Shown here in pieces: positions 14,807 to 32,430 of a stretch of DNA of 64,000 nucleotides. The stretch spans positions 1 through 64,000 of the forward strand of contig DATLUQ010000029.1 in the NCBI GenBank assembly GCA_035533015.1. The letters are read 5' to 3'. Every line of letters begins with the position of its first letter. Within the stretch, counting starts at the first letter, position 1. The notes under the pieces were generated by a model, which worked only from the letters and a program-made list of their open reading frames with translations, did no database searches and was not told the DNA's origin. The position numbers and the translations under genes are program-made. The DNA is from Gemmatimonadaceae bacterium. Its GTDB lineage: Bacteria; Gemmatimonadota; Gemmatimonadetes; Gemmatimonadales; Gemmatimonadaceae.

Positions 14807-15367
14807 CTACTGGCGGAGCGACGCGGCCTCGTGCTCAAGACGGGTGGCGAGCGCCAGGAAGTGGTCGGGTGGGTTGGTCCCGTCGGCCTGCTCGAGCCGG
14901 TTGAACGCGGCGACGAGCGCGGCCGCGGCATCGGGTGGAATCAGTTCGTCGGCCATCGGGAACAGGACTTCGTCTTCCTTGGCGATGTGGTCGCGGAGCA
15001 GGGCGACGTATCCCCGGGCACTCGCGATGATGCGCCGGCGCGCCGCCGGGTCGCCGTCGCCGAGGCGCTTGGCGGCGTCCCGCATGGCACGGTTCAAGTC
15101 GCGTCCTTGCTCATGCTCCTCGAGCATCATGGCGACGGCGCCGCCGTGTGGCGGAGCGCCATGCGCGATCATCGCTCCGAACAGCACGCCTTCTTCCTTG
15201 CGGTGGTGGCAACCGTCGGCGAACCCCGACACGAAGTCGGAGGCATCGAGGAAGAATTCCGGCCGCACGGCGCCACCCCGTGCGAGCTCGTCCGCTGCTG
15301 CCGCCAGCGCATCGAGCACCCGCTCGATGAGGCGGTGCTCGGCCATCAGCATCTCGGTCGGAGTCAT
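14807..15367 (-). CDS. Hemerythrin-like di-iron protein, last gene of the aromatic operon
   Basis: A 186-residue four-helix protein. The start ATG 15367 overlaps the had stop (ATGA), so it is translationally coupled and the start is fixed. Probable di-iron ligands are all visible: H11 (AEHRLIERVL), H54/H55 and E58 (CHHRKEEGVLF), H85 (LEEHEQGRDL), and H127 with D132 (RDHIAKEDEVLFPMAD). These match the H..HxxxE..H..HxxxxD arrangement of hemerythrin-like domains. Such proteins bind O2 or NO reversibly or reduce them. Placed at the end of an operon whose key enzyme is an oxygen-labile radical reductase, O2 scavenging or sensing to protect that enzyme is the obvious inference. A role in iron or NO handling is possible. 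There is no signal peptide, so it is cytoplasmic. Confidence 0.85.
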   Translation of the reverse strand: MTPTEMLMAEHRLIERVLDALAAAADELARGGAVRPEFFLDASDFVSGFADGCHHRKEEGVLFGAMIAHGAPPHGGAVAMMLEEHEQGRDLNRAMRDAAKRLGDGDPAARRRIIASARGYVALLRDHIAKEDEVLFPMADELIPPDAAAALVAAFNRLEQADGTNPPDHFLALATRLEHEAASLRQ

Positions 15368-16440
15368 GGGACGAGCACCGCGCGTTTGGAGAGCCGCCCA
15401 TGGTGGGCCGCCTCGAACACCGCGTTGATCTCGGACAATCGGTGCCGCTCCACGTACGGCTTCACGGCGAGGCGGCCGTCGGAGATCCACTCCAGTAGCT
15501 CGGGATAGATCTCCGGGTCGGCGCCCCAATTGCCGTGGGCTTCGGCGTCATAGGCCATGAGGTTCGAGAGGCAGATCTCGATCTTGTCCATCGTGTAGCC
15601 AACCACGCCCAGCGACGCGCCGAAGCCGAGCAGCGCGTAGGCGGTCTCCTGGCCGGCCTTCGTGCCGGAGGTCTCGAAGATCTTCCACAGGTGCGGCGGT
15701 GCGCCAAGCGACTCGGCGAGAGCCCGCGCTTGCTTGCGAACGTCCTTGAGCGCCATGCCGCGCACGTCGATCACACCGCGCGCCCCCGCCGCCGTGGCCT
15801 GTTCCAATTTCCGCGCGTCGATGTCGATGGCGACCACCGTTCCCCCCGCCGCGCGCGCCACCTGCACCGCATGCACGCCGATGCCGCCCACGCCGACGAC
15901 CACGGCCAGCTCTCCCGGCTGTAGTCTTGAACGCTTCACCGCCTGGAACGGTGTGGACAGCGCATCGGCCACTACGGCGAGTTCCCAGAGTTCGTGTGTC
16001 GCCATCGCCGCGGGCGGCACCGGACACAGATATCGCGCCGGCACGACGACGTGCGACGCGAAGCCCCCGTGTCGGTCGTTGCCCGGCATCACCTGCTGGC
16101 GGCAAATGGCGCGGCGCCCCGCGCGGCAGAGGTCGCACTCTCCGCACGGAAGCACTGCGGGCACCACGACGGCCTGCCCAACGAGCGACGGGCCGACTCC
16201 GGCGCCCACGGCCCGAACGACGCCGCTGATTTCGTGCCCGAGCACCAGGGGCAATGGGCCGCGCGTCTTGACCCCGCCGTACAGATACGACAGGTCAGTG
16301 TGGCACACGCCGCACCCAGCGACCTCGATCAGCGCCTCGCCTGCCAGTGGCGCGGTCCACGGCAGTTCGATACGGTCCATGGCGCTGCCCGGCGTCGTCA
16401 TGACCCAGGCATCGAAGGTCGTTCCAATCGTCGTCGTCAT
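15364..16440 (-). CDS. had: 6-hydroxycyclohex-1-ene-1-carbonyl-CoA dehydrogenase (Had)
   Basis: A 358-residue zinc-dependent medium-chain alcohol dehydrogenase, start ATG 16440 overlapping the ligase stop. Catalytic zinc ligands are in AGCGVCHTDLSYLYGG (C43, C46 region) and GHE (68-70). A four-Cys structural zinc loop is at C99, C102, C105 and C113. The NAD-binding GVGGIG is at about 193-198. The segment LMAYDAEAHGNWG near residue 300 is the feature that marks Had among alcohol dehydrogenases. Had oxidises 6-hydroxycyclohex-1-ene-1-carboxyl-CoA to the 6-oxo compound with NAD+, the third step of the class I benzoyl-CoA pathway. Other genes of that pathway share the operon, which supports the call strongly. 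Confidence 0.88.
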   Translation of the reverse strand: MTTTIGTTFDAWVMTTPGSAMDRIELPWTAPLAGEALIEVAGCGVCHTDLSYLYGGVKTRGPLPLVLGHEISGVVRAVGAGVGPSLVGQAVVVPAVLPCGECDLCRAGRRAICRQQVMPGNDRHGGFASHVVVPARYLCPVPPAAMATHELWELAVVADALSTPFQAVKRSRLQPGELAVVVGVGGIGVHAVQVARAAGGTVVAIDIDARKLEQATAAGARGVIDVRGMALKDVRKQARALAESLGAPPHLWKIFETSGTKAGQETAYALLGFGASLGVVGYTMDKIEICLSNLMAYDAEAHGNWGADPEIYPELLEWISDGRLAVKPYVERHRLSEINAVFEAAHHGRLSKRAVLVP

Positions 16441-18254
16441 TGGGTCTCTCCGAACATCAGGCTGCCGCACTCGTGGCAGCGATCGAGGGTCTTGGGGCGG
16501 CCGCCGAAGCACGGGCGATCGTCACCGGCTACCCGCAGCACCTTTCGCAGGAAACGGCAATCGCATTCCGCGGAGGGCTGGTAGACGGCCTCGAGGTAGT
16601 CTTCCGCCTCGGCCAGCACGTTGCGCACCCGGACCTTCAGCGACGGCGTCAGCTCCTGGTCCTCGATCGTCAGCTCCTTGCTGATCACCGCCACCGCCTT
16701 GATGTGTTCGTACTTGATGGCGTGCGTGCGGTTGAACTCGGCGATCGTCTCGCGCAGCGAGGCGGCGACCACCCGATCGGCGGTGGCGTGGTCGTGGCCG
16801 AACTCCTCGCCGATTCGGAAGAAGTCGGGGTAGATCAGCGCGCAGAGAAAGTCGCGCCCGCCGCCGGCGACGATCACGTGCCGGATGTACGGGTTCATCC
16901 CGGCCAATCGATTCTCGATCTCGGTTGGTACGACCTTTTCCGCGTTCAGCATTTTGAACACCCGGTCCTTGCGCGCGACCAGCTTGAGCGCGGGACCGAG
17001 CAGCTCGCCGAGATCCCCCGTATGGAACCAGCCGTCTCCGGGAAGCGCTTTGGCCGTGGCCTCGTCGTCGCGGTAATAGCCCCGCATGACGTGCGGACCC
17101 TTGACCAGGATCTCTCCGTCGTCGGCGATTTTCACGGTCACGCCGGGCAGCGGGTAGCCCACTTTGCCAGGTTCGGTGCGCGGCTCGTTGAGATCGGTGA
17201 GCGTGCAGCAGGGAGACGTCTCGGTGAGCCCCCAACCTTCGGCCACGGGAATGTGCCGGGCCGCGAAGAACTCGGAGAGGTTCGTGGGAAGCGGCGCGGC
17301 AGCTGTGAACACGAAGCGCAGTTCGGGATGAAAGATCCGCGCCTCGTCTTCCGGGTGCGACTGGATGTGGGCCACGAGCTGCTGGTACACTTTCGGCACG
17401 CTGAAGTAGATCGTGGGCCGGATCTCCATCCAATTCCGGAGCAATACGTCGAAGTCCCGGCCGTACGAGTCGTCGATGGCGAGCGGGGCGCCGTTGTACA
17501 GCGCGCTGTACTTCTCGAAGATGCCGCCGAAGCTGTGGTGCCACGGCAGGTACGACAGGAAGCGGTCCTCCGGGCCGATGTCCCAGATCGCCGCCAGGGC
17601 CCGTCGCTGCGACAGGATGTTGTCGTGGGTCAATTGCACACCTTTCAGCGCGCCGCTCGTTCCCGAGGTGTACATCATCAGGCACGGCGCGGTGGGATCG
17701 AGCGCCACCCCGCGTTCCAGGAACGCGTGACGGCGCGGGTCGCCCGGACTGGAGCGGAATGGCGCGAGCACGTTCCGGAATTCGGCGAACGTGATCACGG
17801 CGCGAGCGCTGAGCGGGACGCGAAGGCGCGCGCGCCACTCGGCATCGGGCAACACCACTGCCGCGGGCGCCGCGTGGGCCAGCAGGTCGCTCGTCTGGTC
17901 GGGCGAGTAGCCGGCAAACAGCGGCGTGTAGATGGCGCCCAGGCACATCGTCGCGAGTTCTGCCACGAGCATCTCGCCCCGATTGGGCGACACGACGACC
18001 ACGCGGTCGCCGCTCGTAACGCCGAGTTGGTCGAGGTAACGGCCGAAGGCGACGACGTCGTCGACCAGTTCCCGCCAGGTGACGTTCCGGAAGGCGCCGC
18101 CGCGCCTCACGCGGATTGCCGGGCGCGCGCCGTGCCTGGCCGCGTTGCGTTTCATGAATGCGGCGATCGTCTCACTCGTCCCGATGGGCTCGAGCAGCGA
18201 CCGGATGCGATCGCCCTCCCGCACCCCGGCGCGCGCGTGGGTGCCCCGTCTCAT
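16437..18254 (-). CDS. AMP-forming acyl/aryl-CoA ligase with Cys-rich C-terminal tail
   Basis: A 605-residue ANL-superfamily ligase. The start ATG 18254 overlaps the upstream activase stop. Motifs in order: MMYTSGTSGALKG (P-loop A3, about residue 190), LPWHHSFGGIFE, GWGLTETSPCCT (A5), GWFHTGDLGEL (A7) and VPTEIENRL near the hinge. It is closer in style to FadD15-like long-chain acyl-CoA synthetases than to the benzoate-CoA ligases of Thauera, so the substrate is uncertain. Benzoate, 4-hydroxybenzoate, another aromatic acid or a ring-reduced acid would all fit the operon. The last 50 residues are unusual: CDC, a further Cys, then CHECGSLMFG, resembling a zinc-ribbon or cluster-binding tail that ordinary ligases lack. 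It is coupled to had by a four-base overlap. Confidence 0.82.
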   Translation of the reverse strand: MRRGTHARAGVREGDRIRSLLEPIGTSETIAAFMKRNAARHGARPAIRVRRGGAFRNVTWRELVDDVVAFGRYLDQLGVTSGDRVVVVSPNRGEMLVAELATMCLGAIYTPLFAGYSPDQTSDLLAHAAPAAVVLPDAEWRARLRVPLSARAVITFAEFRNVLAPFRSSPGDPRRHAFLERGVALDPTAPCLMMYTSGTSGALKGVQLTHDNILSQRRALAAIWDIGPEDRFLSYLPWHHSFGGIFEKYSALYNGAPLAIDDSYGRDFDVLLRNWMEIRPTIYFSVPKVYQQLVAHIQSHPEDEARIFHPELRFVFTAAAPLPTNLSEFFAARHIPVAEGWGLTETSPCCTLTDLNEPRTEPGKVGYPLPGVTVKIADDGEILVKGPHVMRGYYRDDEATAKALPGDGWFHTGDLGELLGPALKLVARKDRVFKMLNAEKVVPTEIENRLAGMNPYIRHVIVAGGGRDFLCALIYPDFFRIGEEFGHDHATADRVVAASLRETIAEFNRTHAIKYEHIKAVAVISKELTIEDQELTPSLKVRVRNVLAEAEDYLEAVYQPSAECDCRFLRKVLRVAGDDRPCFGGRPKTLDRCHECGSLMFGETQ

Positions 18255-19048
18255 ACCGCGACCTCCGGCCCCACCGAAACGGCACCCTCGCGGGCGGCGA
18301 GCGCGGCGCCGAACGCGCCCATCTCCTGCGGGTGCGGCGGGACGACCACTTCGGCGTGCATATCCTCGCCGAGCAACCGCGCCACGGTCGGATGGTACGC
18401 AACCACGCCGCCGGTCGCGACGACCCGACCCTGCAGCACGTCCATCGCTACCACGCGCTTCACGAGCGATCGGTACGCCGCCATGGCCAGGTCCGAGGGC
18501 CGCTTACCGGCGCGGATGAGCGTGAGCAGCTCCGTGCCGGCGAATACCGTGCAGAAACTGGAGAGTTCCAGGACCTCGGTGGATTGCGCCGCCAGGTGGT
18601 CCAGACGATCGACGCCGATACCCAGCCGGAGCGCGATTTCGTCGAGAAAGCTGCCCGTCCCGGCGGCGCACTTTCTGTTCATGCGATGCGCCAGACGTTG
18701 ACCGTTCGCATCGAGGCGAATGACCTTGGCGTCCTGGCCCCCGATGTCGATGACGAGCAGCGGCCCCTTGACGTAGAACGCCGCGCCGCGGCCGTGGCAG
18801 TCGAGTTCGGTCCGCGAACCATCGGCGAACGGTACGGCTTGGCGGCCGAAGCCGGTGGCCCAGATCGCGCGGACGTCCCCCCGCCCACCGGGCGCACGCG
18901 CGAGGGCGAGGGCCAGCGCTTGCTCCGCCGCGCCGGCCAGATCAGCGCCCGAGCGGACCACGGCGCTCGCCAGCACGCGCGCCTCGTCGTCGATGATGAC
19001 GGCCTTGGTGTTCCACGACCCGCTGTCCACGCCCACGAATCGCTTCAT
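18251..19048 (-). CDS. BcrA/BcrD-type ATPase activase (second reductase module)
   Basis: A 265-residue protein of the BcrAD/BadFG/HgdC ATPase family, start ATG 19048 overlapping the preceding subunit's stop. All family signatures are intact: GVDSGSWNTKAVI (phosphate-1), VIDIGGQDAKVIRL (phosphate-2), RKCAAGTGSFLDEIA (first cluster Cys), SSFCTVFAGTELL (second cluster Cys) and VVATGGVVAYHP. These homodimeric activases carry one [4Fe-4S] cluster between the subunits and use two ATP to push an electron onto a 2-hydroxyacyl-CoA dehydratase- or benzoyl-CoA reductase-type partner. Its partner is most likely the subunit encoded immediately upstream (19045-20280). Of the two extra activases in this operon it is the canonical one. 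Confidence 0.88.
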   Translation of the reverse strand: MKRFVGVDSGSWNTKAVIIDDEARVLASAVVRSGADLAGAAEQALALALARAPGGRGDVRAIWATGFGRQAVPFADGSRTELDCHGRGAAFYVKGPLLVIDIGGQDAKVIRLDANGQRLAHRMNRKCAAGTGSFLDEIALRLGIGVDRLDHLAAQSTEVLELSSFCTVFAGTELLTLIRAGKRPSDLAMAAYRSLVKRVVAMDVLQGRVVATGGVVAYHPTVARLLGEDMHAEVVVPPHPQEMGAFGAALAAREGAVSVGPEVAV

Positions 19049-20280
19049 GCACGCGCTCCAGCCGGCCGCGCGTCGGCGAGTTGCTCGACGAACCCCTCGA
19101 CGTTGGTGCGCACCTGTTCGTCGGAAAAGCACCGGAGGTCGTTGACGTCGCCGTCGAGTGCGAGGGTCGGGATGCCGAGTCGCTCGGCGATCCGCCTCGG
19201 CATGCCGTAGCGCGTGTTCGAATTGTTCGGGCAGGTGCGGCAGTCGTGGAAGACGATGCCGTCCACCTCATAGAGCGCGAGCATGCGCTCGATGTACGCT
19301 TCCTTCGCCTCCTCGGAGCGCACGATGAACAGTTCCAGCGACGCTCGCGCCATCGATCGTATGGGATCGGCCGGATCGAGGGACGAGAAGATCCAACTGT
19401 TGCAATAGGTGGATGCGACGACGGCGGTGCGGAATTCCGCGAACAGCGACGAAAGCGCGCGCAGGCGTCCCCACACCGGCATCCCTTCCCAGTACAGACG
19501 GAACGCCTCACGGGGCACCGCAGCCTGCCCGAGGCGCGCCGCGTCGTCCAACTCGGCGAGCAGCAGCCGGTAGTACTCACACGCCTCAGCCGTGCCGCGC
19601 AACACCACCGCCGGCCCCATGTGGATGGTGCCGTCGAAGAACGTCAGCGGGGCAGGGCGATGGGCGGCCGTACGCAGGCACGCCTCCCAGAGGTCCGAGC
19701 ACTCGCGCGACACGCGTACCGCATCCGCCAGGCGTCCGGCATCCAACCTCGTGCCCGCCACGGCCTCGAGCGTCGGGACCAGGCGCTCGAGCTGTATCGC
19801 GACTCCATCCACGTCGCCGTCGTATACCTCCTCGATCGCTCGCGGCGACCGCACCCCGATCACGGGCACGTTCCAGGCCCGGCCGTACCACTCGAACCAG
19901 TCGCGCACGTCGCGGCACTGGTTGGTGTTGAACACGAGTACGTCGGCCCGCGGTGTTGCGCTCAGGCCGAAGGCGGCGAGCGGCGTCTCGCCCGCCAGGT
20001 ACGCGCCGACGTCACTGGTGAGATACGAACACACGTCCTGTGAATAGCCCTGGGCGTGCGCCAGAGGCATGTAGCGGTTGGCGCTGCGCGCGGTGCCCAG
20101 CATGGCCGCATGATTCTCCGGAAAGAACACCTGGAACCCGAGCGCGCGAAGGAGTTCGGCGGGACCAACGCTCGAACACCAGGCCACGGGCGCGGTCTTC
20201 TGCTCGGCGGCCGCGCCGACCGCGCGGTAATACCGGCCCATCGTGTCCTTGAGCGCCGCGGTGCTCCGTAGCGCCGTCAT
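19045..20280 (-). CDS. 2-hydroxyacyl-CoA dehydratase / BcrB-BcrC-like subunit
   Basis: A 411-residue protein. The start ATG 20280 overlaps the upstream stop, which excludes the long in-frame extension. It has the HgdB/FldB/BcrB architecture with three expected cluster cysteines: C35 (VAWCSSVGPAELL), C84 (YSQDVCSYLTSDVGAYL) and the Cys of HDCRTCPNNSNTRYG near residue 360. PADVLVFNTNQCRDV-type Rossmann segments lie between them. Family members hold a [4Fe-4S] cluster, receive single electrons from an activase, and either dehydrate (R)-2-hydroxyacyl-CoA or reduce aryl-CoA. It is more like the dehydratase side than the BcrB encoded at 33698-34969. It probably pairs with the C-terminal half of the fusion at 21076-23328. 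Substrate unknown. Confidence 0.82.
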   Translation of the reverse strand: MTALRSTAALKDTMGRYYRAVGAAAEQKTAPVAWCSSVGPAELLRALGFQVFFPENHAAMLGTARSANRYMPLAHAQGYSQDVCSYLTSDVGAYLAGETPLAAFGLSATPRADVLVFNTNQCRDVRDWFEWYGRAWNVPVIGVRSPRAIEEVYDGDVDGVAIQLERLVPTLEAVAGTRLDAGRLADAVRVSRECSDLWEACLRTAAHRPAPLTFFDGTIHMGPAVVLRGTAEACEYYRLLLAELDDAARLGQAAVPREAFRLYWEGMPVWGRLRALSSLFAEFRTAVVASTYCNSWIFSSLDPADPIRSMARASLELFIVRSEEAKEAYIERMLALYEVDGIVFHDCRTCPNNSNTRYGMPRRIAERLGIPTLALDGDVNDLRCFSDEQVRTNVEGFVEQLADARPAGARA

Positions 20281-21056
20281 TGGAGGACCTTGAGCGCGGC
20301 GCCGAGCGCACCGGTGTAGATCGCATCGGGGACGGCGCGGGCCTCGACCCCGGACAGTTCCTCGAGGGCGCGGAGCACCCCCGGGAAGAACTCGACGACT
20401 CCGCCGCAGACGACGATGGGATGCGTGAAGCCCCCGATCTCGACGATGCGCTCGGCCACCGAGTGCATGCAGCCGAGAGCGACCGCCTCGCGTGAGGCCC
20501 CCTCGCGCAGCCGCTCGAGTACTTCGCTGCCGGAGAACACCGAGCAATAGCTGCTCACGGGCGCCGGCATCGAGGCCGCGGCGGCGAGTTCCTGCAGCCC
20601 CGCGGGCGCGATGTCGAGGTGGCGGGCGGCGAACATCAAGAAGCTGCCGATCCCGACGGCGCACCGTCGCACGCCGCGCGCGTCCACCCGGCGGCCGTCA
20701 TCACCCACGTGCATCACGTGCGGATCACGGCCGCCGATATCGACCAGCGTCATCGCGTGTGGCGCGTGATGGAACGCGCCGAGGGCGTGGCAGCTCTCCT
20801 CGGTGGCCGTGGTCGTCGCGTCGCGCACGCAGTTCATCGCGAACCCCGTGGCGCCGATGCCCGAGAGGTCGGACGGCTGGAGCTGCGCATCCTCCAGCGC
20901 CGCGGTGAGCACCTCGTAGCTGCACGCCTGGAAATACCCCCGCGTAGGGGCCACCGCGCGCCCGAGAATCCGACCGTCGGCACCGGCGACCACTGCCTTC
21001 ACACACTCCGTTCCGACGTCCACGCCGGCTGCGGCCCTCGCTCCATTTTCCAGCAT
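20277..21056 (-). CDS. Divergent BcrA/BcrD-type activase with altered ATP motif
   Basis: A 259-residue member of the BcrAD/BadFG ATPase family. ATG 21056 has GAGGAG eight bases upstream and was preferred to GTG 21062, which is too close to it. Visible motifs: AGVDVGTECVKAVV (phosphate-1), MTLVDIGGRDPHVMHV (phosphate-2, where the usual GGQDxK reads GGRDPH), RRCAVGIGSFLMFAA (usual CAAGTGxFLE) and SSYCSVFSGSEVLERL (second cluster Cys kept). Both cysteines are present, so a bridging [4Fe-4S] cluster is possible, but the changed phosphate-2 and helix-cluster-helix residues suggest altered ATP use or a structural role. In BcrA/BcrD-type heterodimers one subunit is also more divergent, so it may pair with the canonical activase at 18251-19048. 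Confidence 0.8.
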   Translation of the reverse strand: MLENGARAAAGVDVGTECVKAVVAGADGRILGRAVAPTRGYFQACSYEVLTAALEDAQLQPSDLSGIGATGFAMNCVRDATTTATEESCHALGAFHHAPHAMTLVDIGGRDPHVMHVGDDGRRVDARGVRRCAVGIGSFLMFAARHLDIAPAGLQELAAAASMPAPVSSYCSVFSGSEVLERLREGASREAVALGCMHSVAERIVEIGGFTHPIVVCGGVVEFFPGVLRALEELSGVEARAVPDAIYTGALGAALKVLQ

Positions 21057-21075
21057 CGGCACTGCTCCTCGCCGC

Positions 21076-23328
21076 CTAATGGGCGGCCAACCCCTCGACG
21101 TGTTGCTCGATGAACGCGGACAGCTGGCCCTGCAACCGCTCGGTGGAGAACAGGCGCAGATCGTGCGAATCGGCTTCCAGCACGAACGCCGGAACCCCGG
21201 TGGCGCGCTCCGCCCGTACGGCGAGACCAAACCGCACGTGGCTTGCCTCCGGCGTCGTGCGGCAGTCGTGGTAGACCGCCGCGTCCACCCCGAACTCGTC
21301 GAACTTCGAGGCGAGATACGCCGTCTTGAAGTGCTCCGACCGGTTGCCGAACACGCCGGTGTACGCGCGTGCCATGCTGGCGATCGGGTCATCGGCATCG
21401 AGACCCGGCAGCACGAACTCGCCGCAGAACGTCGAAGCCACGACGGCGACCCCGGCATCGGCGAACAGCCGTGAAAGCGGTCGCAGCGCGCACCAGATGG
21501 GCGGCCCATCCCAGTAGAAGCGAAGCGTCTCGTTGGGGACGGCGCCGATTCCCCGGGCCACGCGATCTTCCAGTTCGTCCTTCAGTTCCCGGTAGTACGA
21601 CACCGCTGTCCGCGTCCCGCGCAGCAGCACCATCGGTGCGAGATGCACGACCGAATCGAAGAAGGTCATCGGCGCGGGCACGGCCCGCGCCAGTGTGAGA
21701 ATGTCGTCCCAGAGCGCACTCGCTTCCCCGCTGTAGCCGACCGTTTCGCTCAGCCGGTCGATTTCGAGCGCACGGCCGGTCGAGCGTTCCAGCCGCGACG
21801 CGAGCCGCAGCAACTGGTCCACGGCGGCGTCGACGTCGATGGGCTCCAGATCGTGCAAGGCCGGCGGTGGATGCAGCCCGTCCACCGGCACGCCGTAATG
21901 CGACCCGTAGAACTCGAACCAGCGCAGAAGCTGGTGGCCGGTGTTGGTACTGTAGACCACGACATCGGGGCGGGGCACGCCGGCAATGCCGTGCGCCGCG
22001 ATGAGCGGACTCGTGCCCTCGAGTAATGCGCCGACGTCGGCGCGCATCGCCGAACTGGCGAACTGCGAGAAGCCGTGGGCCGTGGCGCGCGCGATCGCAT
22101 GGCCGCCCTGTCGGGTCGCCGCGATGAGAGCGGCGTGGTTCTCCGGGAAGTACGGCACGATGCCCAGCGCGCGCACGATCTCCACGGGGCCCAACGCCGA
22201 GCACGCCGCCACGAGACGCGACCGGTCGGCCGAGGCCGCCGCGAGATCGCGGTAGTAGTCCCGCATGAGTTCCTTGAGGTGCCGGGTGCTCTCGAGCGGC
22301 GGCCCACTAGGCGTCATCCCGCCGTCCACGCCGCGCAGCATGGGCGTTCCACCGGTGGGCGGCTGGTCCAGGCCCAACTTCTCGGCGGTCGCCTGCTTGA
22401 GCAGGAATTTCTGGCGCTCGCGCGAATGGATGAAGTCCACGATGGCCCGGTTGTGCGGCGCCGAAAGGCCGAGACGAGCGGCCTCAGCGGCCACCGCGCC
22501 GTTGAGGGCATCCACCTCGGTGCGCTTGCCGCGCGAGAGATCCTGCCACATCGACGGGCGGTTCTTGCCGAGCGCCTTGAGCGAGCCGATGATCGGCCGG
22601 AAGGGATCCTCTTCGTCCACGATCGGGATGCCGCGCGCCCGCATCACTGCGACGATCTCACCGCAGAGGTCGCGCATGAACGTCATCAGGTGCTCGTCGG
22701 CGAGCATCTCACGACAGGTGAGTCCCGTGAGCGCCGACGTCGGATTCACCACGGCGTTGTGCAGCAGCTTCTGCCAGATCGCGTGGTCGACGTTCGGCAC
22801 GACTTCGGTGGCCATTCCGGCGGTCCGGAACACCTCCGCGATCGGCTCGATCTGATCCCGATCCGCGCCGCTGAACGGCGCGATCTGAATGGGTTTGATC
22901 CCCGCGCGATAGTTGAGGCGCCGAGGCCCCGCGTGTTGGATGCTGTGATACGTGATGCCGCACAGCACGCGCTCGGCGCCTACGAGCCCGGCGATCTTCT
23001 CGGCATTGCCGATCCCATTCTGGAGTGAGAGGAACAGCGTCCGCGGCCCGCACGCCGGCAACACGGACCGCACCGCGGCCTCGGTCTCGTACGTCTTCAC
23101 GGCGACGAACACCAGATCGAATGGCGCCAGACCGTCCACGGTGGATACCACGGTCACCGGGACGCACACCTCCTCCTCGCCCATCCGGCTGACGAGCAGC
23201 CCGGCCTCGTTCAACAACGTCGCGCGCGCCGTGTTCACCTCGAGCAGAGCAACATCCTCGCCAGCACGCGTCAGATTCGCGCCCACGAGCCCACCCAGAG
23301 CGCCGGCTCCCACAATCAGCGTTCGCAT
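21076..23328 (-). CDS. Fusion: ketopantoate-reductase-type dehydrogenase + 2-hydroxyacyl-CoA dehydratase-like subunit
   Basis: A 750-residue protein in one uninterrupted frame. Residues 1-310 are a 2-dehydropantoate 2-reductase (ApbA/PanE-like) enzyme: VGAGALGG at the N-terminus, VAVKTYETEAA, the catalytic Lys region IWQKLLHNAVVNPTSAL (K187) and SMWQDLSRGKRTEVDALNG with E271. Residues about 348-750 are a BcrB/HgdB-like subunit beginning LKELMRDYYRDLAAASADRS. Its first cluster Cys is C376 (AACSALGP) and the third is in HDCRTTPEAS. The middle one is absent, since the DVCSYLTSDVG of the partner reads FASSAMRADVG here. KPR-fold enzymes include D-2-hydroxyacid dehydrogenases, so the fusion could join 2-oxoacid reduction with 2-hydroxyacyl-CoA dehydration. 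M338 could serve as an internal start. The function is inferred. Confidence 0.8.
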   Translation of the reverse strand: MRTLIVGAGALGGLVGANLTRAGEDVALLEVNTARATLLNEAGLLVSRMGEEEVCVPVTVVSTVDGLAPFDLVFVAVKTYETEAAVRSVLPACGPRTLFLSLQNGIGNAEKIAGLVGAERVLCGITYHSIQHAGPRRLNYRAGIKPIQIAPFSGADRDQIEPIAEVFRTAGMATEVVPNVDHAIWQKLLHNAVVNPTSALTGLTCREMLADEHLMTFMRDLCGEIVAVMRARGIPIVDEEDPFRPIIGSLKALGKNRPSMWQDLSRGKRTEVDALNGAVAAEAARLGLSAPHNRAIVDFIHSRERQKFLLKQATAEKLGLDQPPTGGTPMLRGVDGGMTPSGPPLESTRHLKELMRDYYRDLAAASADRSRLVAACSALGPVEIVRALGIVPYFPENHAALIAATRQGGHAIARATAHGFSQFASSAMRADVGALLEGTSPLIAAHGIAGVPRPDVVVYSTNTGHQLLRWFEFYGSHYGVPVDGLHPPPALHDLEPIDVDAAVDQLLRLASRLERSTGRALEIDRLSETVGYSGEASALWDDILTLARAVPAPMTFFDSVVHLAPMVLLRGTRTAVSYYRELKDELEDRVARGIGAVPNETLRFYWDGPPIWCALRPLSRLFADAGVAVVASTFCGEFVLPGLDADDPIASMARAYTGVFGNRSEHFKTAYLASKFDEFGVDAAVYHDCRTTPEASHVRFGLAVRAERATGVPAFVLEADSHDLRLFSTERLQGQLSAFIEQHVEGLAAH

Positions 23329-23362: not shown

Positions 23363-24148
23363 TCACCGATTGTGCCATACCGGCCTTCGTTTGCCGAAGA
23401 ATGCCGCGACTCCTTCGTTCACATCGTCGAGCGCCATCAGCTCGTCCAGAAACACGCGCTCGGCTTCGAGCCGCCCGGCCTCGAACGGCCGTCCCTGCAG
23501 TTGCCGCACGAGCCGCACGTTCAGCCGCATCACGGCAGGGCTCGCCCGCCGCAGTTCACCAAGCACCGACGCGAGCGTATCGGTCAATTCCGACGGCGGT
23601 ACGACCCGCGACACGAGCCCCATGGCCGCCATCTCGGCGGCCGGATAGGAGTGCCCGGTGGCCGTGATCTCGACGGCGCGGGCCGGCCCGACGCGCGCTG
23701 ACAGCCACGACACGCCCACCGGCGCGAAGAACCCCAGCCGGATCTCGGGTTGGCCGAACGTCGCCCTGGTGCTGACAAGAAGGATGTCGGCCATGAGCGC
23801 AAGCTCGAAGCCGGCTCCCAGGGCGGGGCCGTCCACCGCCATCACGATCGGCACCTCGCAGGCTCCGAACGCCGAGAACAGGCGGCTGAACGCCGCGATC
23901 ATCGCCGGCGCGTTTTCCGGGCGGTGCTCGCCCACGTCGGCGCCCGCCGAGAACGCGGTGCCGTTCGCCGTAACGGCGATGGCCGCGACCGAGCGGTCCG
24001 CCTGCGCGCGCTCCACGACCGCCGCGAGCTCCGTCATCATGGCGCCGGTGAGAATGTTGAGCGGCGGCGCGTCGAGCGTGACGTGCGCGATCGCATCGCG
24101 CACCTCGTATTGCACCGTCGTCTGGGCCTGCGCCGTGGAGGCCGCCAT
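23363..24148 (-). CDS. dch: Cyclohexa-1,5-diene-1-carbonyl-CoA hydratase (Dch)
   Basis: A 261-residue crotonase-fold protein, close to the roughly 258 residues of known Dch. ATG 24148 is preceded by AGGGG at seven bases. The oxyanion/substrate segment reads TAFSAGADVGEHRPENAPAM, and the GEHRPEN part is a hallmark of Dch (GASVEEHLPDQ in Thauera-type enzymes) not found in ordinary enoyl-CoA hydratases. The catalytic region FGQPEIRLGFFAPVG follows. Dch adds water to the dienoyl-CoA made by benzoyl-CoA reductase, giving 6-hydroxycyclohex-1-ene-1-carboxyl-CoA, the Had substrate. Gene neighbours bcr, had and oah agree. Confidence 0.87.
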   Translation of the reverse strand: MAASTAQAQTTVQYEVRDAIAHVTLDAPPLNILTGAMMTELAAVVERAQADRSVAAIAVTANGTAFSAGADVGEHRPENAPAMIAAFSRLFSAFGACEVPIVMAVDGPALGAGFELALMADILLVSTRATFGQPEIRLGFFAPVGVSWLSARVGPARAVEITATGHSYPAAEMAAMGLVSRVVPPSELTDTLASVLGELRRASPAVMRLNVRLVRQLQGRPFEAGRLEAERVFLDELMALDDVNEGVAAFFGKRRPVWHNR

Positions 24149-24174: not shown

Positions 24175-24924
24175 CTATATGTACTGGCCTCCGTCCACCT
24201 TGATGACCATCCCCGTGACATGCCGGGCCTGCGCGGAGCAGAGGAACGTGACGACCTGCGCCACATCCTCCGGCTCGGCGACGCGGCCAAGCGCTGATTC
24301 CCGCTTTGCGTTGTCCACGATCTCGGCCGGCAGCGCCGCCGTCATCTCCGTGCGCACGAGCCCAGGCGCCACGCAGTTCACGGTGACGCCGGCGCCGCCC
24401 AGTTCGCGGGCCAGCGACTTGGTCAGGGCAATGACCCCCGCCTTCGATGCCGCGTAGTTGGACTGGCCGAACTTCCCGCGGAGCCCATTGATGCTCGCGA
24501 TCGTTACGATCCGTCCACGCCGCTGGGCCCGGAGGATCGGAGCGATGGCGCGGCAGTAGGCGAAGCAGCCCTTGAGGTTGACGTCCAGCACTTCGTCCCA
24601 CTGGAGTTCCGTCATCTTCCAGATCACGGCATCGCGGGCCACGCCGGCATTGGCTACGAGAATGTCCAGCCGCCCGAACTCCTGGCGGGCGGCCTCCACG
24701 CACTCTTCCGCGGCGGCGACGTTCGCGACGTTGGCCTCGAGGACGAGCACCCGCCGCCCGCGCGCGCGGATCCGTTCCGCCACCGCCCGGGCCTCCGTGA
24801 TCGCGCCGGAGTCGACGAGGGCGACGTCACATCCCTCGTCGGCCAGCCCCAACGCGATCGCCGCACCGATGCCGCGCCCGCCACCGGTGATGATCGCCGA
24901 ACGTCCCGCCAGCTCCAGGTCCAT
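24175..24924 (-). CDS. Short-chain dehydrogenase (3-hydroxyacyl-CoA/FabG-like)
   Basis: A 249-residue classical SDR. ATG 24924 has GGGAG upstream and starts 14 bases after the oah stop. TGGGRGIGAAIA (about 13-24) is the cofactor loop, NAG the central motif, Ser of IASING and the YAASK pair complete the catalytic set, and APGLVRTEM follows. The residue at the end of beta-2 is Asp (VALVDSGA), which favours NAD over NADP. In this operon it could oxidise 3-hydroxypimeloyl-CoA or another hydroxyacyl-CoA formed after ring opening, overlapping in role with the HCDH fusion at 36350. Substrate is inferred from context only. Confidence 0.8.
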   Translation of the reverse strand: MDLELAGRSAIITGGGRGIGAAIALGLADEGCDVALVDSGAITEARAVAERIRARGRRVLVLEANVANVAAAEECVEAARQEFGRLDILVANAGVARDAVIWKMTELQWDEVLDVNLKGCFAYCRAIAPILRAQRRGRIVTIASINGLRGKFGQSNYAASKAGVIALTKSLARELGGAGVTVNCVAPGLVRTEMTAALPAEIVDNAKRESALGRVAEPEDVAQVVTFLCSAQARHVTGMVIKVDGGQYI

Positions 24925-24938
24925 CGTGCTCCCGCTCG

Positions 24939-25922
24939 TCAGGCGCCGGAGGCGCCGTTCAGCTTCGCTCCGCACTGGCCGCAGTACGCGAACGCGGAGG
25001 GAATACCCTTGGCCCCGCAGTGCGGGCAGGTGTGCTCGTACGGTCCCCACAGAAACTCACTGCTTCCGCCGTCGGTCGCCCGGCCGCGAATCCCGCGGTA
25101 GTCGATCTTGCGCTTCTCGACGAACGCCTGCATGCCTTCGTAGGGTTCGAGCGTCGTGAAGTGCGTGGACAGCCAGTCGCGGGCGTGGCCGATGGTCGCG
25201 AACCACGCCGACTCCTTCCAGTAATTCACCTGTTGCTTGGTATAGCGCGTGCACTCGGGGAACGTGTTCAGAAGCTTCTGCGCCAATTCGTTCACCGTGT
25301 CGTCGAGTTGCGCCCGCGGCACCACGCGGTTCACCAATCCCCACTCCAGGGCCTGCGCCGCCGGAATGCGCGGGTTGAGGAACAGCATTTCGCGCGCGCG
25401 CCGATCGCCCACGTGGATCGACAGCCACTGCGTAGCGCCGCCGGCCGCCACACTGCCCACGCTGGATCCCACCTGGCCCAGATAGCAGTCGTCGGCCATC
25501 ACGGCGAGGTCGCACGCGAGCTGCGACTCGTTCCCGCCGCCCACCGCCATCCCGTTGATGCGCGCGATCGTCACCTTGCCGCTGCGGAAGATCGATTCGA
25601 TGTAGCGGCTGAACAGACCCATGTACTTGAAGTATTCGTGAGGCCGCTTCGTGTAGACCGACGCGTATTCTTTGACGTCGCCTCCGGTGCAGAACGCTTT
25701 CTCTCCAGCGCCAGTGTACACGATCACCCCTACCTGGTCGTCTTGCGACGCGTCGTCGAACGCGCGAATCAGCTCCCGCAGCGTGTCGGTGGTGTACGCG
25801 TTGTAGGCTTCTGGGCGGTTGATCGTGATCCGGGCGACGTAATCCTTCTTGTCGTAGAGGATGTCCTTGAAATCCATGCTGCGAGGCGATTTCGAAGTGA
25901 AGTAGTCGATGAGCGAGGTCAT
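24939..25922 (-). CDS. oah: 6-oxocyclohex-1-ene-1-carbonyl-CoA hydrolase (Oah), short form with zinc-ribbon tail
   Basis: A 327-residue crotonase-family protein. ATG 25922 is chosen although no good ribosome site is visible; M16 (25877) is the alternative. The block VIVYTGAGEKAFCTGGDVKEY, followed by PHEYFKYMGLF and INGMAVGGGNE, closely matches Oah/BamA ring-opening hydrolases (TGAGDKAFCTGGNTKEY...EYxxYMxLF) and differs from enoyl-CoA hydratases. Oah adds water across the C=C and hydrolyses the ring C-C bond, giving 3-hydroxypimeloyl-CoA. Known Oah enzymes are near 377 residues. This one lacks about 50 internal residues and instead ends in CPHCG...CGQCG, a zinc-ribbon-like tail. Functional assignment is good, but the short core deserves checking. 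Confidence 0.78.
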   Translation of the reverse strand: MTSLIDYFTSKSPRSMDFKDILYDKKDYVARITINRPEAYNAYTTDTLRELIRAFDDASQDDQVGVIVYTGAGEKAFCTGGDVKEYASVYTKRPHEYFKYMGLFSRYIESIFRSGKVTIARINGMAVGGGNESQLACDLAVMADDCYLGQVGSSVGSVAAGGATQWLSIHVGDRRAREMLFLNPRIPAAQALEWGLVNRVVPRAQLDDTVNELAQKLLNTFPECTRYTKQQVNYWKESAWFATIGHARDWLSTHFTTLEPYEGMQAFVEKRKIDYRGIRGRATDGGSSEFLWGPYEHTCPHCGAKGIPSAFAYCGQCGAKLNGASGA

Positions 25923-25954
25923 GTGGTAGGTCTGGTTGGCGTCAGCCCGATGGT

Positions 25955-27169
25955 TCAGTGCGTGGTCACCTTCACAACGACCGCCGCCGCCGAATCGCCG
26001 GCGGCGCATCCGGTGAACAGGCCGTATCCTCCGCCCTGATTCACCAGGTCCTCCACGAGTTCGATGATCGCTCGCAGCCCGGTCGGGCCTTGGGGATGGC
26101 CCCAGACCAGCGAAGACCCGAACCGGTTCATCATTTCCGGGTCGAGGTGCAGGGAGCGGGACAGCAGGACGTCGTTCACCGCGAACGGATTGTGAGTCGT
26201 GGTGCTCGCAAGTTGGTCGGCGCCGATGCCCGCCCGCGCCAACGCCATCTGCGCCGCCGGGACGATGGCCATGGGCATGAAGCCCGGCTTCACGCGCGCC
26301 TGGCCGTACGAGAGCAGTCGGACCTCGACGTGCTCGTTGCGCGACAGCGCACGCGCGCGATCGCGGCTCCCGGTGAGCACCATGCCGGCACTGCCGTCGG
26401 CCGGATGCGTCTGGGTGCCGAACGTGACGCTCCCGCCCTCGGCGACCGGCCGCAGCGCGGCCAATCCGCTCGCCGTGGTCGGGAATACACCCTCGTCGTC
26501 TTTGATCGTGGCTGCGACCTTCTTGCCGCGCTTGACCTCCACGGGCCGCACCATGAATCGGCCGTGAAAGGCGCCGTCGTCGGCCAGCGCACGGGCGTAC
26601 TGTGCGTACCGCAACAGCGTCATCTCCTCCTGCGCCTGGCGCGTGATCGCGCATTCGCGGGCGACGTTCTCAGCCGTCTGGAGCATCGAGTTCTTGGCGT
26701 ACGGATCGTGGCCGAAGCTGTCGAGCACCAGGTCCTCGTGCTCCCCCGTGCCGCCGGCGCCGCCGGGATTGGGGTAGTACACGTGCGGCCCGTTGCTCGT
26801 TCGGTCGGCGGCCACGGCCAGGTACACGCTGGCGCTCCCGGTAGCCAACTCCTGCGCGCCCTCCACCACGCACCGCGCCGACGTGGCGCAGGCCTGATTG
26901 ATGGTCGGACCACTGACGTGGCCGAGCCCCGCAAGCCCGGCAAACCACGGCGCGCCGTAGAACGAGCCCTTGCTCGGCACCGTCGTGCCAAGGCTCATGC
27001 CGTCGATGTCGCTCGGCGCGATGCCCCGCTCATCGAGCGCCCGGTGGGCCAGCTCGGCGGCAAGCGGAATTGGCGCGAGGTTCGCAAACGAACCCTGCCA
27101 CGCGCAGAACGGCGACGACCAGTAGCCGCCGTAGGGAATATAGATGCTCTCGAATTGCATATCGCTCAT
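25955..27169 (-). CDS. Thiolase (acyl-CoA acetyltransferase)
   Basis: A 404-residue thiolase, start ATG 27169 overlapping the tetR stop. Active-site nucleophile Cys in INQACATSARCV (about residue 90), His in TTTHNPFAVND, WGHPQGPTGLR as the GHPxGxxG segment, and a second Cys in FTGCAAGDSAAAVVV. The C-terminal motif is CAAGD rather than the CIGGG of classical acetyl-CoA acetyltransferases, which points to a specialised thiolase. In context it would cleave 3-oxopimeloyl-CoA to glutaryl-CoA and acetyl-CoA after Oah and 3-hydroxyacyl-CoA dehydrogenase. Substrate is inferred. Confidence 0.83.
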   Translation of the reverse strand: MSDMQFESIYIPYGGYWSSPFCAWQGSFANLAPIPLAAELAHRALDERGIAPSDIDGMSLGTTVPSKGSFYGAPWFAGLAGLGHVSGPTINQACATSARCVVEGAQELATGSASVYLAVAADRTSNGPHVYYPNPGGAGGTGEHEDLVLDSFGHDPYAKNSMLQTAENVARECAITRQAQEEMTLLRYAQYARALADDGAFHGRFMVRPVEVKRGKKVAATIKDDEGVFPTTASGLAALRPVAEGGSVTFGTQTHPADGSAGMVLTGSRDRARALSRNEHVEVRLLSYGQARVKPGFMPMAIVPAAQMALARAGIGADQLASTTTHNPFAVNDVLLSRSLHLDPEMMNRFGSSLVWGHPQGPTGLRAIIELVEDLVNQGGGYGLFTGCAAGDSAAAVVVKVTTH

Positions 27170-27801
27170 CGTTTGCGCACTCCATTCAGAATCAGATCGA
27201 TCATCTCCGTGCCGATCTCCTCGACCGTGCCGAACCGGGCCGGGTCGTACCACATGAAAATCCAGTTCAGCATGCCGAACACGAACAGCGCCGCGTGGCG
27301 GCTGCGCCGCGACCGGCCGTCACCCTTCTCGCCCATCAAGGCGCTCACCGCGCTGGTCATGAGTTGGTAGTACCGCCGCCGCAGCGCCTCCGTGGCCTCG
27401 TACCGTTCGCCCTGCAGCGAGGCGAGTTCGTAGGTGCACACCTTGAGCTCGTTCGGATGGCTGGTGAAGAACGCGAGGTGCCCGATCACCAGGCGGCGCA
27501 ACCGCTCCTCCGGGGTACCGGACACCGCCGCGCGCTCCTCCTGCGCCGCGAGCAGCGCCGCGAACGTCCGGTACTGGATCTGATAGAGCAACTCCTCTTT
27601 GGAGTCGAAGTAGTGGTAGAGGCCGGCGAGACTCACCCCGAGCGCGCGGCTCACGTCGCGCATGGATGTCGCCTCGAATCCCTTGTCGGCGATCAACCCA
27701 GCCGCCGCTTCGAGAATGGCTTCCAGCTTCTGTTGCGTCGCGGCCCGGGGACCCCGACGGCGTGGGGCGGTGGACGTGCCGCCGTTGCTGCTTGGATTCA
27801 T
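27166..27801 (-). CDS. TetR-family regulator inside the benzoyl-CoA operon
   Basis: A 211-residue regulator. The N-terminal helix-turn-helix is at about residues 35-75 (ATSMRDVSRALGVSLAGLYH, YFDSKEELLYQ), and the C-terminal all-helical ligand domain is of the kind that binds acyl-CoA in many aromatic and fatty-acid degradation repressors. Start and stop both overlap neighbours by four bases, so it is cotranscribed with the pathway and probably autoregulated. The palindrome at 36215-36232 over the two divergent promoters is its best operator candidate. The likely inducer is benzoyl-CoA or a pathway CoA ester, by analogy with PaaR- and FadR-type TetR proteins. The acidic/basic N-terminal leader (APRRRGPRAATQQ) is normal for the family. 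Confidence 0.85.
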   Translation of the reverse strand: MNPSSNGGTSTAPRRRGPRAATQQKLEAILEAAAGLIADKGFEATSMRDVSRALGVSLAGLYHYFDSKEELLYQIQYRTFAALLAAQEERAAVSGTPEERLRRLVIGHLAFFTSHPNELKVCTYELASLQGERYEATEALRRRYYQLMTSAVSALMGEKGDGRSRRSRHAALFVFGMLNWIFMWYDPARFGTVEEIGTEMIDLILNGVRKR

Positions 27802-30677: not shown

Positions 30678-31558
30678 GCCACGCCTCCCGCTTCGCGCGC
30701 CCGGGACACTGCTTGCGCGAGCGCCCGCCGCACGAGCACCGCAACGATGTCGCGGCGGAACCCCTCCGAGCCACGGATGTCGGAGATCGGGAGCGCGGCA
30801 TCGGCGCACACCGCGCCGGCCACGGCGAACAACTCGTCGGTTGCGAGCTCGCCCTCGAGCAGGCTCGACACCTGCTTCACCATCACCGGTACCGGGCTCA
30901 CGGCACCCAGCGCAACCGCCGCGCGCGCAATCCGGTCGCCGGCGAGCACCACGGCCGCCGCGGCCGACGCCACGGCAAGCGCCATCCCGCGGCGCTGCGC
31001 GAACCGCTGAAAGCTGGTGCCGCTGTGCGCTGCGGACGCCGGCACGAGGATCTCGGCCAACACTTCCCCGGGTGCGAGCACCGTCCTTCTCGGACCGGCG
31101 AACAGCTCCGCGGCGCCGATCGTCCGCTCGCCGGTGCCCGAAACGATGCGCAGCCGCGCCTGTCCCACCATGGCGGCCGGCGGCAGGTCGGCACACGACA
31201 CCGCGCGACAGAAGTTCCCGCCAATGGTCGCCAGACTCCGGATCTGCGGGCTGCCCAACGCGCGCGCGGCCTCGGCGAGCGCCGGCAGCCACGCTTGAAC
31301 GTCGGCCGACGCGGCGATCGCGCCCACCGTGGTCAGGGCGCCGATATGCAGCGTGTCGCCCTTGCGCGCGATCCCGCGCAGTTCGGAGATCCGGCCAAGC
31401 GCGATCAGATGGGTCGCCTGCTCGCGGCCACGCTGATAATCGGGCACCAACTCCGTACCCCCGGCCAGGAACGCCGCGCTGCCACCAAGCCGCTGGCCCA
31501 GCGCGCAGGCTTCGGCCAGGGTCGTCGGTCGGTGATAGGTCAGGGGCAGGGTGGGCAT
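30674..31558 (-). CDS. FAD subunit of the molybdenum hydroxylase (CoxM/HcrB type)
   Basis: A 294-residue subunit of the FAD-binding-5/CO-dehydrogenase-flavoprotein type: FLAGGTELVPDYQRG (FAD pyrophosphate), LRGIARKGDTLHIGALTT and RSLATIGGNFCRAVSCADL. It begins eight bases after bcrD and overlaps the fused FeS-Mo gene by four. The Hcr beta subunit has an insert of about 40 residues with four Cys holding an extra [4Fe-4S] cluster, which explains its reverse electron flow. Here that region is short and only two cysteines (C-x4-C in NFCRAVSCADL) are seen. This argues against a classical Hcr, or means electrons take another route. The subunit passes electrons between the FeS clusters and an external partner. 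Confidence 0.83.
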   Translation of the reverse strand: MPTLPLTYHRPTTLAEACALGQRLGGSAAFLAGGTELVPDYQRGREQATHLIALGRISELRGIARKGDTLHIGALTTVGAIAASADVQAWLPALAEAARALGSPQIRSLATIGGNFCRAVSCADLPPAAMVGQARLRIVSGTGERTIGAAELFAGPRRTVLAPGEVLAEILVPASAAHSGTSFQRFAQRRGMALAVASAAAAVVLAGDRIARAAVALGAVSPVPVMVKQVSSLLEGELATDELFAVAGAVCADAALPISDIRGSEGFRRDIVAVLVRRALAQAVSRAREAGGVA

Positions 31559-31566
31559 GCTGGGTC

Positions 31567-32430
31567 TCAGCTCACTGCCGCCGCCGACCACGCGACGTCG
31601 GAGAGCTCCAATTTGCGGAACCGGAAGCCACCCCACAGCGCTGCCCCGATCGCGCCAGCGTAGATCGCGGATTCGTCCGTGATGACCTCGGCCGCCCCTT
31701 CGCCCGTAACCGGCGCCTTCTTGCTCATGGCATCCCGGAGTGCGGCGAGCATCCCCACATCGCCCGCCAATCCGCCGCTGACGAACACCGGTCCGTCGAA
31801 CTGCAGCGACCGCAACAAGCGCGCGAATCGGTCGGCCATGCTCTGGTGCACTCCCCGCAGGATGTTGGCCGTGGTGATTCCTCGCGACACCATGTTGATC
31901 ACGTCGGTTTCGGCCAGCACGGCGCAGATGGAACTCACCTTCTCCGGCTCGTCCGCCTGGAGCGACAGCGGACCGATCTCGTCGTGCGAGACACCCAGGT
32001 ACCGGGCGATGTTCTCGAGGAACTGTCCAGAGCCCGACGCACACTGGCTCGTCATCTTGTAGTCCAGCACCCGGCCGCGCTCGTCCATCGCCAGCGCGCG
32101 TGTGTGCAGGGCCCCGACGTCGAGCACGGCGCGGGCCGGAGGGGCCAGATGCAGTGCGCCCCGGGCGTGCGCCGTCATGCCGTAGAAGTGCCCGGTGGCG
32201 TATGGGAACTCCGCGCCCTCGCCAGTGGTCGCGATGTAGTGGATCGCATCGACGCCAGCCGCATCCGTGGCGGCCTGGAAGACTTCGTCCACGACCTTGG
32301 CCACGACCCGGCGGCGGATGCGCGACGATTGCTGCGTGAGCATCGTGGCGTCACCGTCGGCGTCCGTCCGCATGATCACCACTTTCACGGCGCCGCTGCC
32401 TACGTCGATCCCTGCGCTCAGAGTGCTCAT
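31567..32430 (-). CDS. bcrD: Benzoyl-CoA reductase subunit D (BcrD)
   Basis: A 287-residue BcrAD/BadFG ATPase subunit whose ATG 32430 overlaps the bcrA stop by one base. Motifs: GIDVGSGAVKVVIMR (phosphate-1), AVLDVGALHTRALAMD (the phosphate-2 variant I associate with BcrD-type chains, in place of DIGGQDxK), KMTSQCASGSGQFLENIARYLG (first cluster Cys) and SSICAVLAETDVINMVSRGI (second). The ETDVINMVSRG segment is typical of BcrD/BadG. With BcrA it forms the heterodimer that hydrolyses two ATP per electron and holds a bridging [4Fe-4S] cluster. Order C-B-A-D is identical to Thauera and Rhodopseudomonas operons. Confidence 0.9.
   Translation of the reverse strand: MSTLSAGIDVGSGAVKVVIMRTDADGDATMLTQQSSRIRRRVVAKVVDEVFQAATDAAGVDAIHYIATTGEGAEFPYATGHFYGMTAHARGALHLAPPARAVLDVGALHTRALAMDERGRVLDYKMTSQCASGSGQFLENIARYLGVSHDEIGPLSLQADEPEKVSSICAVLAETDVINMVSRGITTANILRGVHQSMADRFARLLRSLQFDGPVFVSGGLAGDVGMLAALRDAMSKKAPVTGEGAAEVITDESAIYAGAIGAALWGGFRFRKLELSDVAWSAAAVS

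Follow-up and report, generated by a model that had tools for sequence, protein, structure and literature searches.

A Conserved Four-Gene Module With Two Alpha-Type Chains and No Encoded Beta Chain in a Gemmatimonadota Benzoyl-CoA Operon

The benzoyl-CoA operon of a Gemmatimonadaceae bacterium encodes, beside a canonical benzoyl-CoA reductase (BCR), a second set of catalytic-type and activase chains. The window analyzed here comprises 64,000 nt of this organism (GenBank assembly GCA_035533015.1, contig DATLUQ010000029.1, positions 1–64,000 of the forward strand). The module, termed here the quartet, occupies positions 18251–23328 of the minus strand in the gene order KPR:SubA, Act2, SubB, Act1, where KPR denotes a ketopantoate-reductase-type domain fused to the first subunit. 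These four chains are real and conserved, and not a product of chance. SubA and SubB are paralogs, both of the alpha (HadB/BzdO-like) type, and no beta-type chain was found in the module by profiles or trees. We favor reading the quartet as a beta-less (R)-2-hydroxyacyl-CoA dehydratase (HAD), here probably acting on an aryl-lactyl-CoA, with a rough probability of 0.6.

A preliminary description of this DNA had given the module's coordinates exactly and had noted its alternation of subunit and activase genes, which is present on the minus strand; the motifs it listed for the activases (GGQDAK/CAAGTG and GGRDPH/CAVGIG) and the subunits (DVCSYLTSDVG/FASSAMRADVG) are all found in the sequence. Its picture of four chains, in which subunits and activases alike comprise a conserved and a modified half, also stands, as does the distinctness of the module, by scores and trees, from the neighboring bcrCBAD, double-cubane proteins and Bzd/Mbd-type reductases. 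It had missed the alpha-type paralogy of the two subunits and the absence of a beta chain, the identity of the fusion partner, the occurrence of SubB–Act1 on its own elsewhere, and the resemblance of SubA–Act2 to a degenerate copy of the SubB–Act1 pair.

Two Alpha-Type Chains and One Set of Cluster Ligands

The fused KPR:SubA gene (21076–23328, minus strand; 750 aa) matches Pfam ApbA and ApbA_C N-terminally and HGD-D in SubA. SubB (19045–20280, minus) also matches HGD-D, and Act2 (20277–21056, minus) and Act1 (18251–19048, minus) both match BcrAD_BadFG, with four-base overlaps at the Act2/SubB and SubB/Act1 junctions. The host is a soil bacterium with a genome of 3.03 Mb that is 95.2% complete, in which HGD-D occurs at four places, all within the window, namely SubA, SubB and the BCR pair.

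The SubA profile matches HadB (3o3m_A) at 143 bits, along with MbdO and BzdO, and HadC is absent from its matches. The SubB profile finds HadB (3o3m_A) best, at 199 bits, also MbdO and BzdO, and HadC at 20 bits; for comparison, the profile of the window BcrC matches MbdN, HadC and BzdN. A careful 51-chain tree sets the beta rows on one side of a branch supported at 100/100; SubA and SubB form a clade (98/100), and each is itself a group (SubA 100/100, SubB 96/93). Structures were predicted for single chains. The SubB model (predicted local distance difference test score, pLDDT, 91) aligns to HadB with a VIA-align Z of 48.5 (root-mean-square deviation 1.9 over 396 residues), to BzdO with 45.5, to MbdO with 42.1 and to HadC with 32.7. 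In the model of the fused chain (pLDDT 82, predicted template modeling score 0.56), a KPR-type domain at residues ~1–305 is followed by a low-confidence linker (305–340) and then the alpha-type HGD-D chain, and the halves match ketopantoate reductases and HadB in the PDB. The idea that SubA is a disguised beta chain is ruled out by the profiles and trees. As both module chains are alpha-type, the quartet does not encode the HAD heterodimer of an alpha chain and a beta chain with a storage cluster, nor is SubA a BCR beta chain of the BcrC/BzdN kind. The equivalog models of known families stay below their cut-offs: NF052455 (HadB; cut-off 750 bits) scores SubB at 193 and SubA at 138 bits, the BCR alpha models TIGR02260 and TIGR03191 reach 138.2/486.55 and 69/448.6 bits (score/cut-off), and the double-cubane model NF040772 (cut-off 350) gives 45.8 (SubB) and 31.6 bits.

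Individual residues were compared in groups set by tree membership, comprising 18 SubA rows, 21 BCR alpha rows and 30 SubB rows (11 from quartets and 19 others, of which L072, L073 and L124 belong to SubA-bearing genomes); five HAD alpha chains were named and four aligned, L133 being left out. The ligand places are C84, C117 and C346 of HadB, with HadB residues numbered by counting from the printed chain, and C95, C128 and C380 of BzdO, whose ligand and contact residues are those given in PMC11971306. SubB has Cys at all three places in 30/30 rows (C84, C122 and C350 of the window copy, counted from Met). Among the 18 SubA rows, the first place is always Ser or Asn, the second always Gly or Ser, and the third is Cys in only three; the window copy has S425, G464 and T692, and the Cys of its HDCRTT motif lies outside the ligand column. 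The earlier claim that SubA lacks the middle cysteine was thus correct as far as it went, but alignment to HadB/BzdO removes the first and third as well (Ser, Gly, Thr). SubB thus carries a conserved ligand set for one [4Fe-4S] cluster, like the three-Cys alpha chain of HAD, and SubA lacks this set. The thioester-contact Tyr follows the same division (kept in 30/30 SubB rows, lost in 18/18 SubA rows), and every row retains the active-site Glu, the 18/18 SubA rows included. HadB Trp34 and Ser37 are kept in 30/30 SubB rows and 4/4 HAD alpha rows, and in 0/21 BCR alpha rows; BzdO was not used at the HadB Ser35/Ser37 columns, where its row slips out of register.

Conservation of the Module and Its Reductase-Type Domain

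Among 395 sampled Gemmatimonadota genomes, 16 encode the fused KPR:SubA, each with SubB ~2 kb away, and the fused chain is an open frame of 769–830 aa in all 17 copies. One genome (G307) holds two quartet copies (L038 and L039), each accompanied by bcr and hcr genes. Stretches of 13–20 kb were fetched for 16 loci, and 15 of these retain, within the limits of their contigs, the order bcrCBAD–hcrBCA–TetR–thiolase–Oah-like–SDR–ECH–KPR:SubA–Act2–SubB–Act1–CoA ligase–had, where SDR is a short-chain dehydrogenase and ECH an enoyl-CoA hydratase. To broaden this sample, a pattern scan with the SubA alignment was run over 84,980 named species, each represented by a single genome; it returned 16 SubA loci, 13 of them titled as Gemmatimonadota-type metagenome-assembled genomes (MAGs) and three as Acidobacteria MAGs, and the fusion is in frame in all 15 that show both parts. 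This conserved frame rules out that KPR and SubA were joined by chance or by a frameshift. SubA is always accompanied by SubB (16/16 Gemmatimonadota genomes and 7/7 in the Acidobacteria search described below), Act2 comes next after SubA wherever the contig extends far enough, and a BCR-type alpha chain is present in all 23 of these genomes (16 + 7); of the 16, the genome search hit it in 15, and the gene map of the fetched loci showed it in the last (G307).

The fusion partner is a predicted 2-oxoacid-reductase-type domain. It scores above the TIGR00745 cut-off, the only such match in the genome, and its residues N104, K187, N191, N195 and E271, which we take to be catalytic, are invariant. 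We considered whether the domain is PanE of pantothenate synthesis, and ruled this out because panB has no match in the 95% complete genome, while 11/14 control genomes match. Enzymes of the KPR family yield (R)-2-hydroxyacids, and this is the configuration on which dehydratases act.

SubB–Act1 Outside the Quartet

The search of 396 genomes from the phylum of an Acidobacteria MAG (G405) revealed a SubB-like chain above 500 bits in 25, with G405 itself contributing a contig-end fragment. SubA is present in seven of these 26 genomes and absent from 19, so SubB–Act1 occurs without SubA–Act2. In raw counts over the 19 SubB-only loci, whose representatives were named by Pfam/NCBIfam, neighbors include KPR (15), an ADP-forming acyl-CoA synthetase (14), a family III CoA-transferase (7) and a LarA-like 2-hydroxyacid racemase (5), the racemase, transferase and synthetase matches lying below equivalog cut-offs. 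KPR was not found in loci L114, L115, L117 and L119, and it is on the opposite strand in L107. No beta-type chain matched in 18 of the 19 stretches, the remaining one (L127) having its BcrC, and in five of the 19 genomes (G586, G528, G758, G636 and G478, completeness unstated) SubB is the only HGD-D protein. The more distant alpha chains L129–L134 have the usual beta–alpha–activase order.

At the SubB–Act1 locus of G758 (L111), KPR is fused to an aldehyde:ferredoxin oxidoreductase (AFOR): a single frame of 973 aa (L111:721–3639, minus strand) joins KPR, AFOR_N/C and ThiS-like domains, and is the only AFOR_N match of that genome. Eight other genomes with SubB–Act1 and without SubA (G586, G528, G491, G678, G602, G654, G519 and G662) have 8 to 25 AFOR_N matches each.

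Unequal Activases and a Probable Duplicated Pair

Act1 is a canonical activase (GGQDAK, KCAAGTG, SSFCTVF; CoA_E_activ 196.8 bits, cut-off 125.4), and Act1-type rows carry GGQDxK and KCAAGTG in 27/27. Act2 has an altered phosphate loop (GGRDPH in the window) with both cluster cysteines, which are invariant in 16/16 rows; GGQD occurs in none of the 16 rows, of 17, whose variants are shown. Of the two hallmarks of HAD activases, an intact nucleotide motif and two cluster cysteines, Act1 thus has both and Act2 only the cysteines. The preliminary description had taken the altered half as a departure from BCR, but no such difference exists: BcrD rows read GALxxR (GALHTR or similar) and QCASGSG in 8/8 each and MbdP reads GGQTMK. 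The activases of BCR are thus unequal in the same way, and Act1/Act2 are two unequal activases just as BcrA/BcrD are.

Act1 and Act2 group together, apart from BcrA/BcrD, with a support of 97 in a 73-row tree and 94 in a 91-row tree. The order inside this group is not settled by the 91-row tree, where L095, an Act1 row, is placed with Act2; long-branch rows are uncertain in both trees, and the activase of L127 falls outside Act1. The SubA/SubB clade and the Act1/Act2 grouping point to the duplication of a subunit–activase pair followed by the decay of one copy, and SubA–Act2 accordingly looks, by its sequence, like a degenerate copy of the SubB–Act1 pair. A duplication confined to the quartet lineage was rejected, as a clade of SubA with only the SubB chains of quartets has p = 0.0056 in the approximately unbiased (AU) test, the grouping having been named after the first tree was seen; the duplication therefore seems older than the quartet.

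A Candidate Dehydratase Without a Beta Chain

Two functions had been suggested in the preliminary description, a second aryl-CoA reduction and the dehydration of an aryl-lactoyl-CoA. The latter fits better, because SubB has a HadB-like active site, the KPR residues are conserved, panB is absent, and SubB–Act1 elsewhere has synthetase, transferase and racemase neighbors. In such a dehydratase, KPR would reduce a 2-oxoacid to the (R)-2-hydroxyacid, the CoA ligase of the operon (16437–18254, minus; Pfam AMP-binding), which overlaps the end of Act1 and keeps its place in the gene order, would make the CoA ester, an Act1/Act2 dimer would give SubB one electron, and SubB would remove water by ketyl-radical chemistry to yield a 2-enoyl-CoA. 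The likeliest substrates would be phenyl- or 4-hydroxyphenyl-pyruvate/lactate, fed via (hydroxy)cinnamoyl-CoA to benzoyl-CoA, since benzoyl-CoA and 4-hydroxybenzoyl-CoA reductases lie in the same operon; for a benzene degrader, PMC13416013 sketches a similar route in which phenylpyruvate is converted via cinnamoyl-CoA into benzoyl-CoA.

The striking point is the missing electron-storage cluster of the beta chain. The dehydratases and class I reductases described in PMC11574389 and PMC11971306 have a second chain with a cluster, whose presumed role is to park electrons for the active site, and the former source describes the beta cluster of dehydratases as storing the electron between turnovers. 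In the quartet this role may have been lost, or may fall to the cluster of the activase itself within a stable SubA–SubB–Act1–Act2 complex. It is possible, though we would put it at somewhat short of even odds, that these proteins form a lineage of BCR/HAD radical enzymes without an electron-storing beta chain, in which SubB2–Act1 is alpha-only and the duplicated pair of the quartet lost its catalytic cluster and ATPase motif and kept the activase cluster ligands. A bound, unequal activase would then hold the electron while one catalytic [4Fe-4S] cluster does the radical chemistry, and the doubling of a two-gene unit would have produced a BCR-like four-chain architecture for a second time.

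The clostridial Had/Fld pathways comprise a reductase, CoA activation, a dehydratase and an activase. The module resembles these systems (HadBC–HadI, FldBC–FldI, HgdAB–HgdC) in its alpha fold, ligand cysteines, HadB-like Trp/Ser and canonical activase, and in having 2-hydroxyacid dehydrogenase and CoA-activation genes close by. Unlike them, it has no beta chain, adds a second alpha-type chain without ligands and a second, altered activase, carries a fused KPR, has an AMP-forming CoA ligase or ADP-forming synthetase, and sits in a benzoyl-CoA operon. With class I BCR (BcrCBAD, MbdNOPQ, BzdNOPQ) it shares two catalytic-type and two activase chains, the operon, and the alteration of one activase (shown for BcrD and MbdP). 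However, BCR combines an alpha chain with an anciently split beta chain that has a storage cluster, whereas the module has two alpha paralogs, one of them ligand-free, and scores far under the BCR equivalog cut-offs. The SubB–Act1 form recalls double-cubane proteins and their activase in pairing one catalytic chain type with one activase, although in the trees double-cubane proteins lie on the beta side, and their cluster is of the [8Fe-9S] type. Our literature search, which left most subscription journals outside, found no beta-less dehydratase, no KPR that is joined to such a chain by fusion or pairing, and no description of this module.

Several observations weigh against a dehydratase. The module sits between the ring-pathway genes ECH and had, and the strongest ring-hydratase candidate is the operon ECH itself, so that an aryl-lactate route is not backed by every gene; an activase pair with one altered half is, as seen above, a BCR trait. 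One locus (L043) has no SDR or thiolase nearby, although the genes from Oah-like to had are kept around its quartet, and its BCR is MBR-type by a quick version of the typing tree. G758 has a strong had match (574 bits) with SubB as its only HGD-D protein. The phylogeny proposed in the preliminary description places SubA/SubB in a clade of their own outside the BCR clades, and the AU test rejects neither HAD (p-AU 0.36) nor BCR alpha (p-AU 0.26) as their sister group; as Bzd-type BCR alpha also lies beside HadB, the tree does not predict the reaction.

Much of this would suit a second ATP-dependent aryl-CoA or alicyclic-CoA reductase, whose substrate would be a substituted ring or a ring intermediate from a later step; SubB would then provide the active site, and Act1/Act2 would be an unequal pair of the BCR kind. 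The position between ECH and had, the similar activase loss in BcrD, and the AU result for BCR alpha are all consistent with it, and SubB–Act1 stands beside ECH–had in L111 and L117 and beside Had–Oah–ECH in L127, with G758 having had and no class I BCR. We nevertheless consider a reductase unlikely: SubB keeps the HadB-type Trp/Ser absent from BCR alpha, a BCR-type alpha chain is already at hand in each of the 23 genomes with SubA, the fused or adjacent 2-oxoacid reductase, racemase and CoA-transferase would be left without a reason, and there is no beta cluster to deliver a second electron. Less likely again is that SubA and Act2 are catalytically dead and only SubB2–Act1 works, SubA serving as a scaffold or regulator for the KPR domain. 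The missing SubA ligand set, the 19 genomes with SubB–Act1 alone, and the loci (L123, L124 and L060) where SubB–Act1 is split off on the other strand would be in keeping with this, but the constant company of SubB and Act2 with SubA, the retained cluster cysteines of Act2 and the active-site Glu of SubA speak against it. Finally, SubB might borrow BcrC from the neighboring reductase, as class I BCR is present in all 23 SubA genomes; this is very improbable given the five SubB–Act1 genomes without any other HGD-D protein and the varied BCR types (MBR-type in L043) beside a single SubB clade.

If the quartet and its relatives are beta-less dehydratases, a one-cluster enzyme would make the need for a beta chain, and the ATP cost per turnover, testable in SubB–Act1. 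If the substrate guess is also correct, they would open an anaerobic route, in two widespread phyla, by which 2-oxoacids derived from tyrosine or phenylalanine reach benzoyl-CoA.

The Surrounding Operon

Genes for benzoyl-CoA degradation are reported from Gemmatimonadota in PMC10581226. In the window, all operon genes described here are on the minus strand. Beyond the CoA ligase lies had (15364–16437), a 6-hydroxycyclohex-1-ene-1-carbonyl-CoA dehydrogenase gene (TIGR03201, 440 bits; cut-off 338.65). On the other side of the quartet, ECH (23363–24148; ECH_1) is the best dienoyl-CoA-hydratase candidate among nine places in the genome, yet below the TIGR03189 cut-off (133.7 vs 292.5 bits). It is followed by a FabG-like SDR (24175–24924; NCBIfam), a crotonase like Oah/BadI/MenB (24939–25940; ECH_1, NCBIfam scores below cut-offs) and a thiolase (25955–27166; Thiolase_N/C). 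An hcrBCA-like molybdenum hydroxylase resembling 4-hydroxybenzoyl-CoA reductase (27798–31549) scores 928.9/994.55 bits with TIGR03194 and 171.7/257.8 with TIGR03193. The canonical bcrCBAD (31567–36132) was assigned by NCBIfam TIGR models, with BcrC (TIGR02263, 482.8 bits), BcrB (TIGR02260, 675.4) and BcrD (TIGR02261, 344.5) all above cut-offs and BcrA at 567 bits against a TIGR02259 cut-off of 578.

The same genome also encodes a frame of 1048 aa with two BcrAD_BadFG domains (G000:C6:30824–32545), and no HGD-D gene was found in it outside the window. Divergent from bcrC, a plus-strand gene (36350–38368) fuses a 3-hydroxyacyl-CoA dehydrogenase, first, to an enoyl-CoA hydratase, second. Cysteine-rich tails, zinc-ribbon-like by eye, end both the Oah-like crotonase and the CoA ligase. 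Further along, the plus strand encodes a resistance–nodulation–division (RND) transporter of the AcrB/AcrD/AcrF family (46265–49507; 1080 aa).
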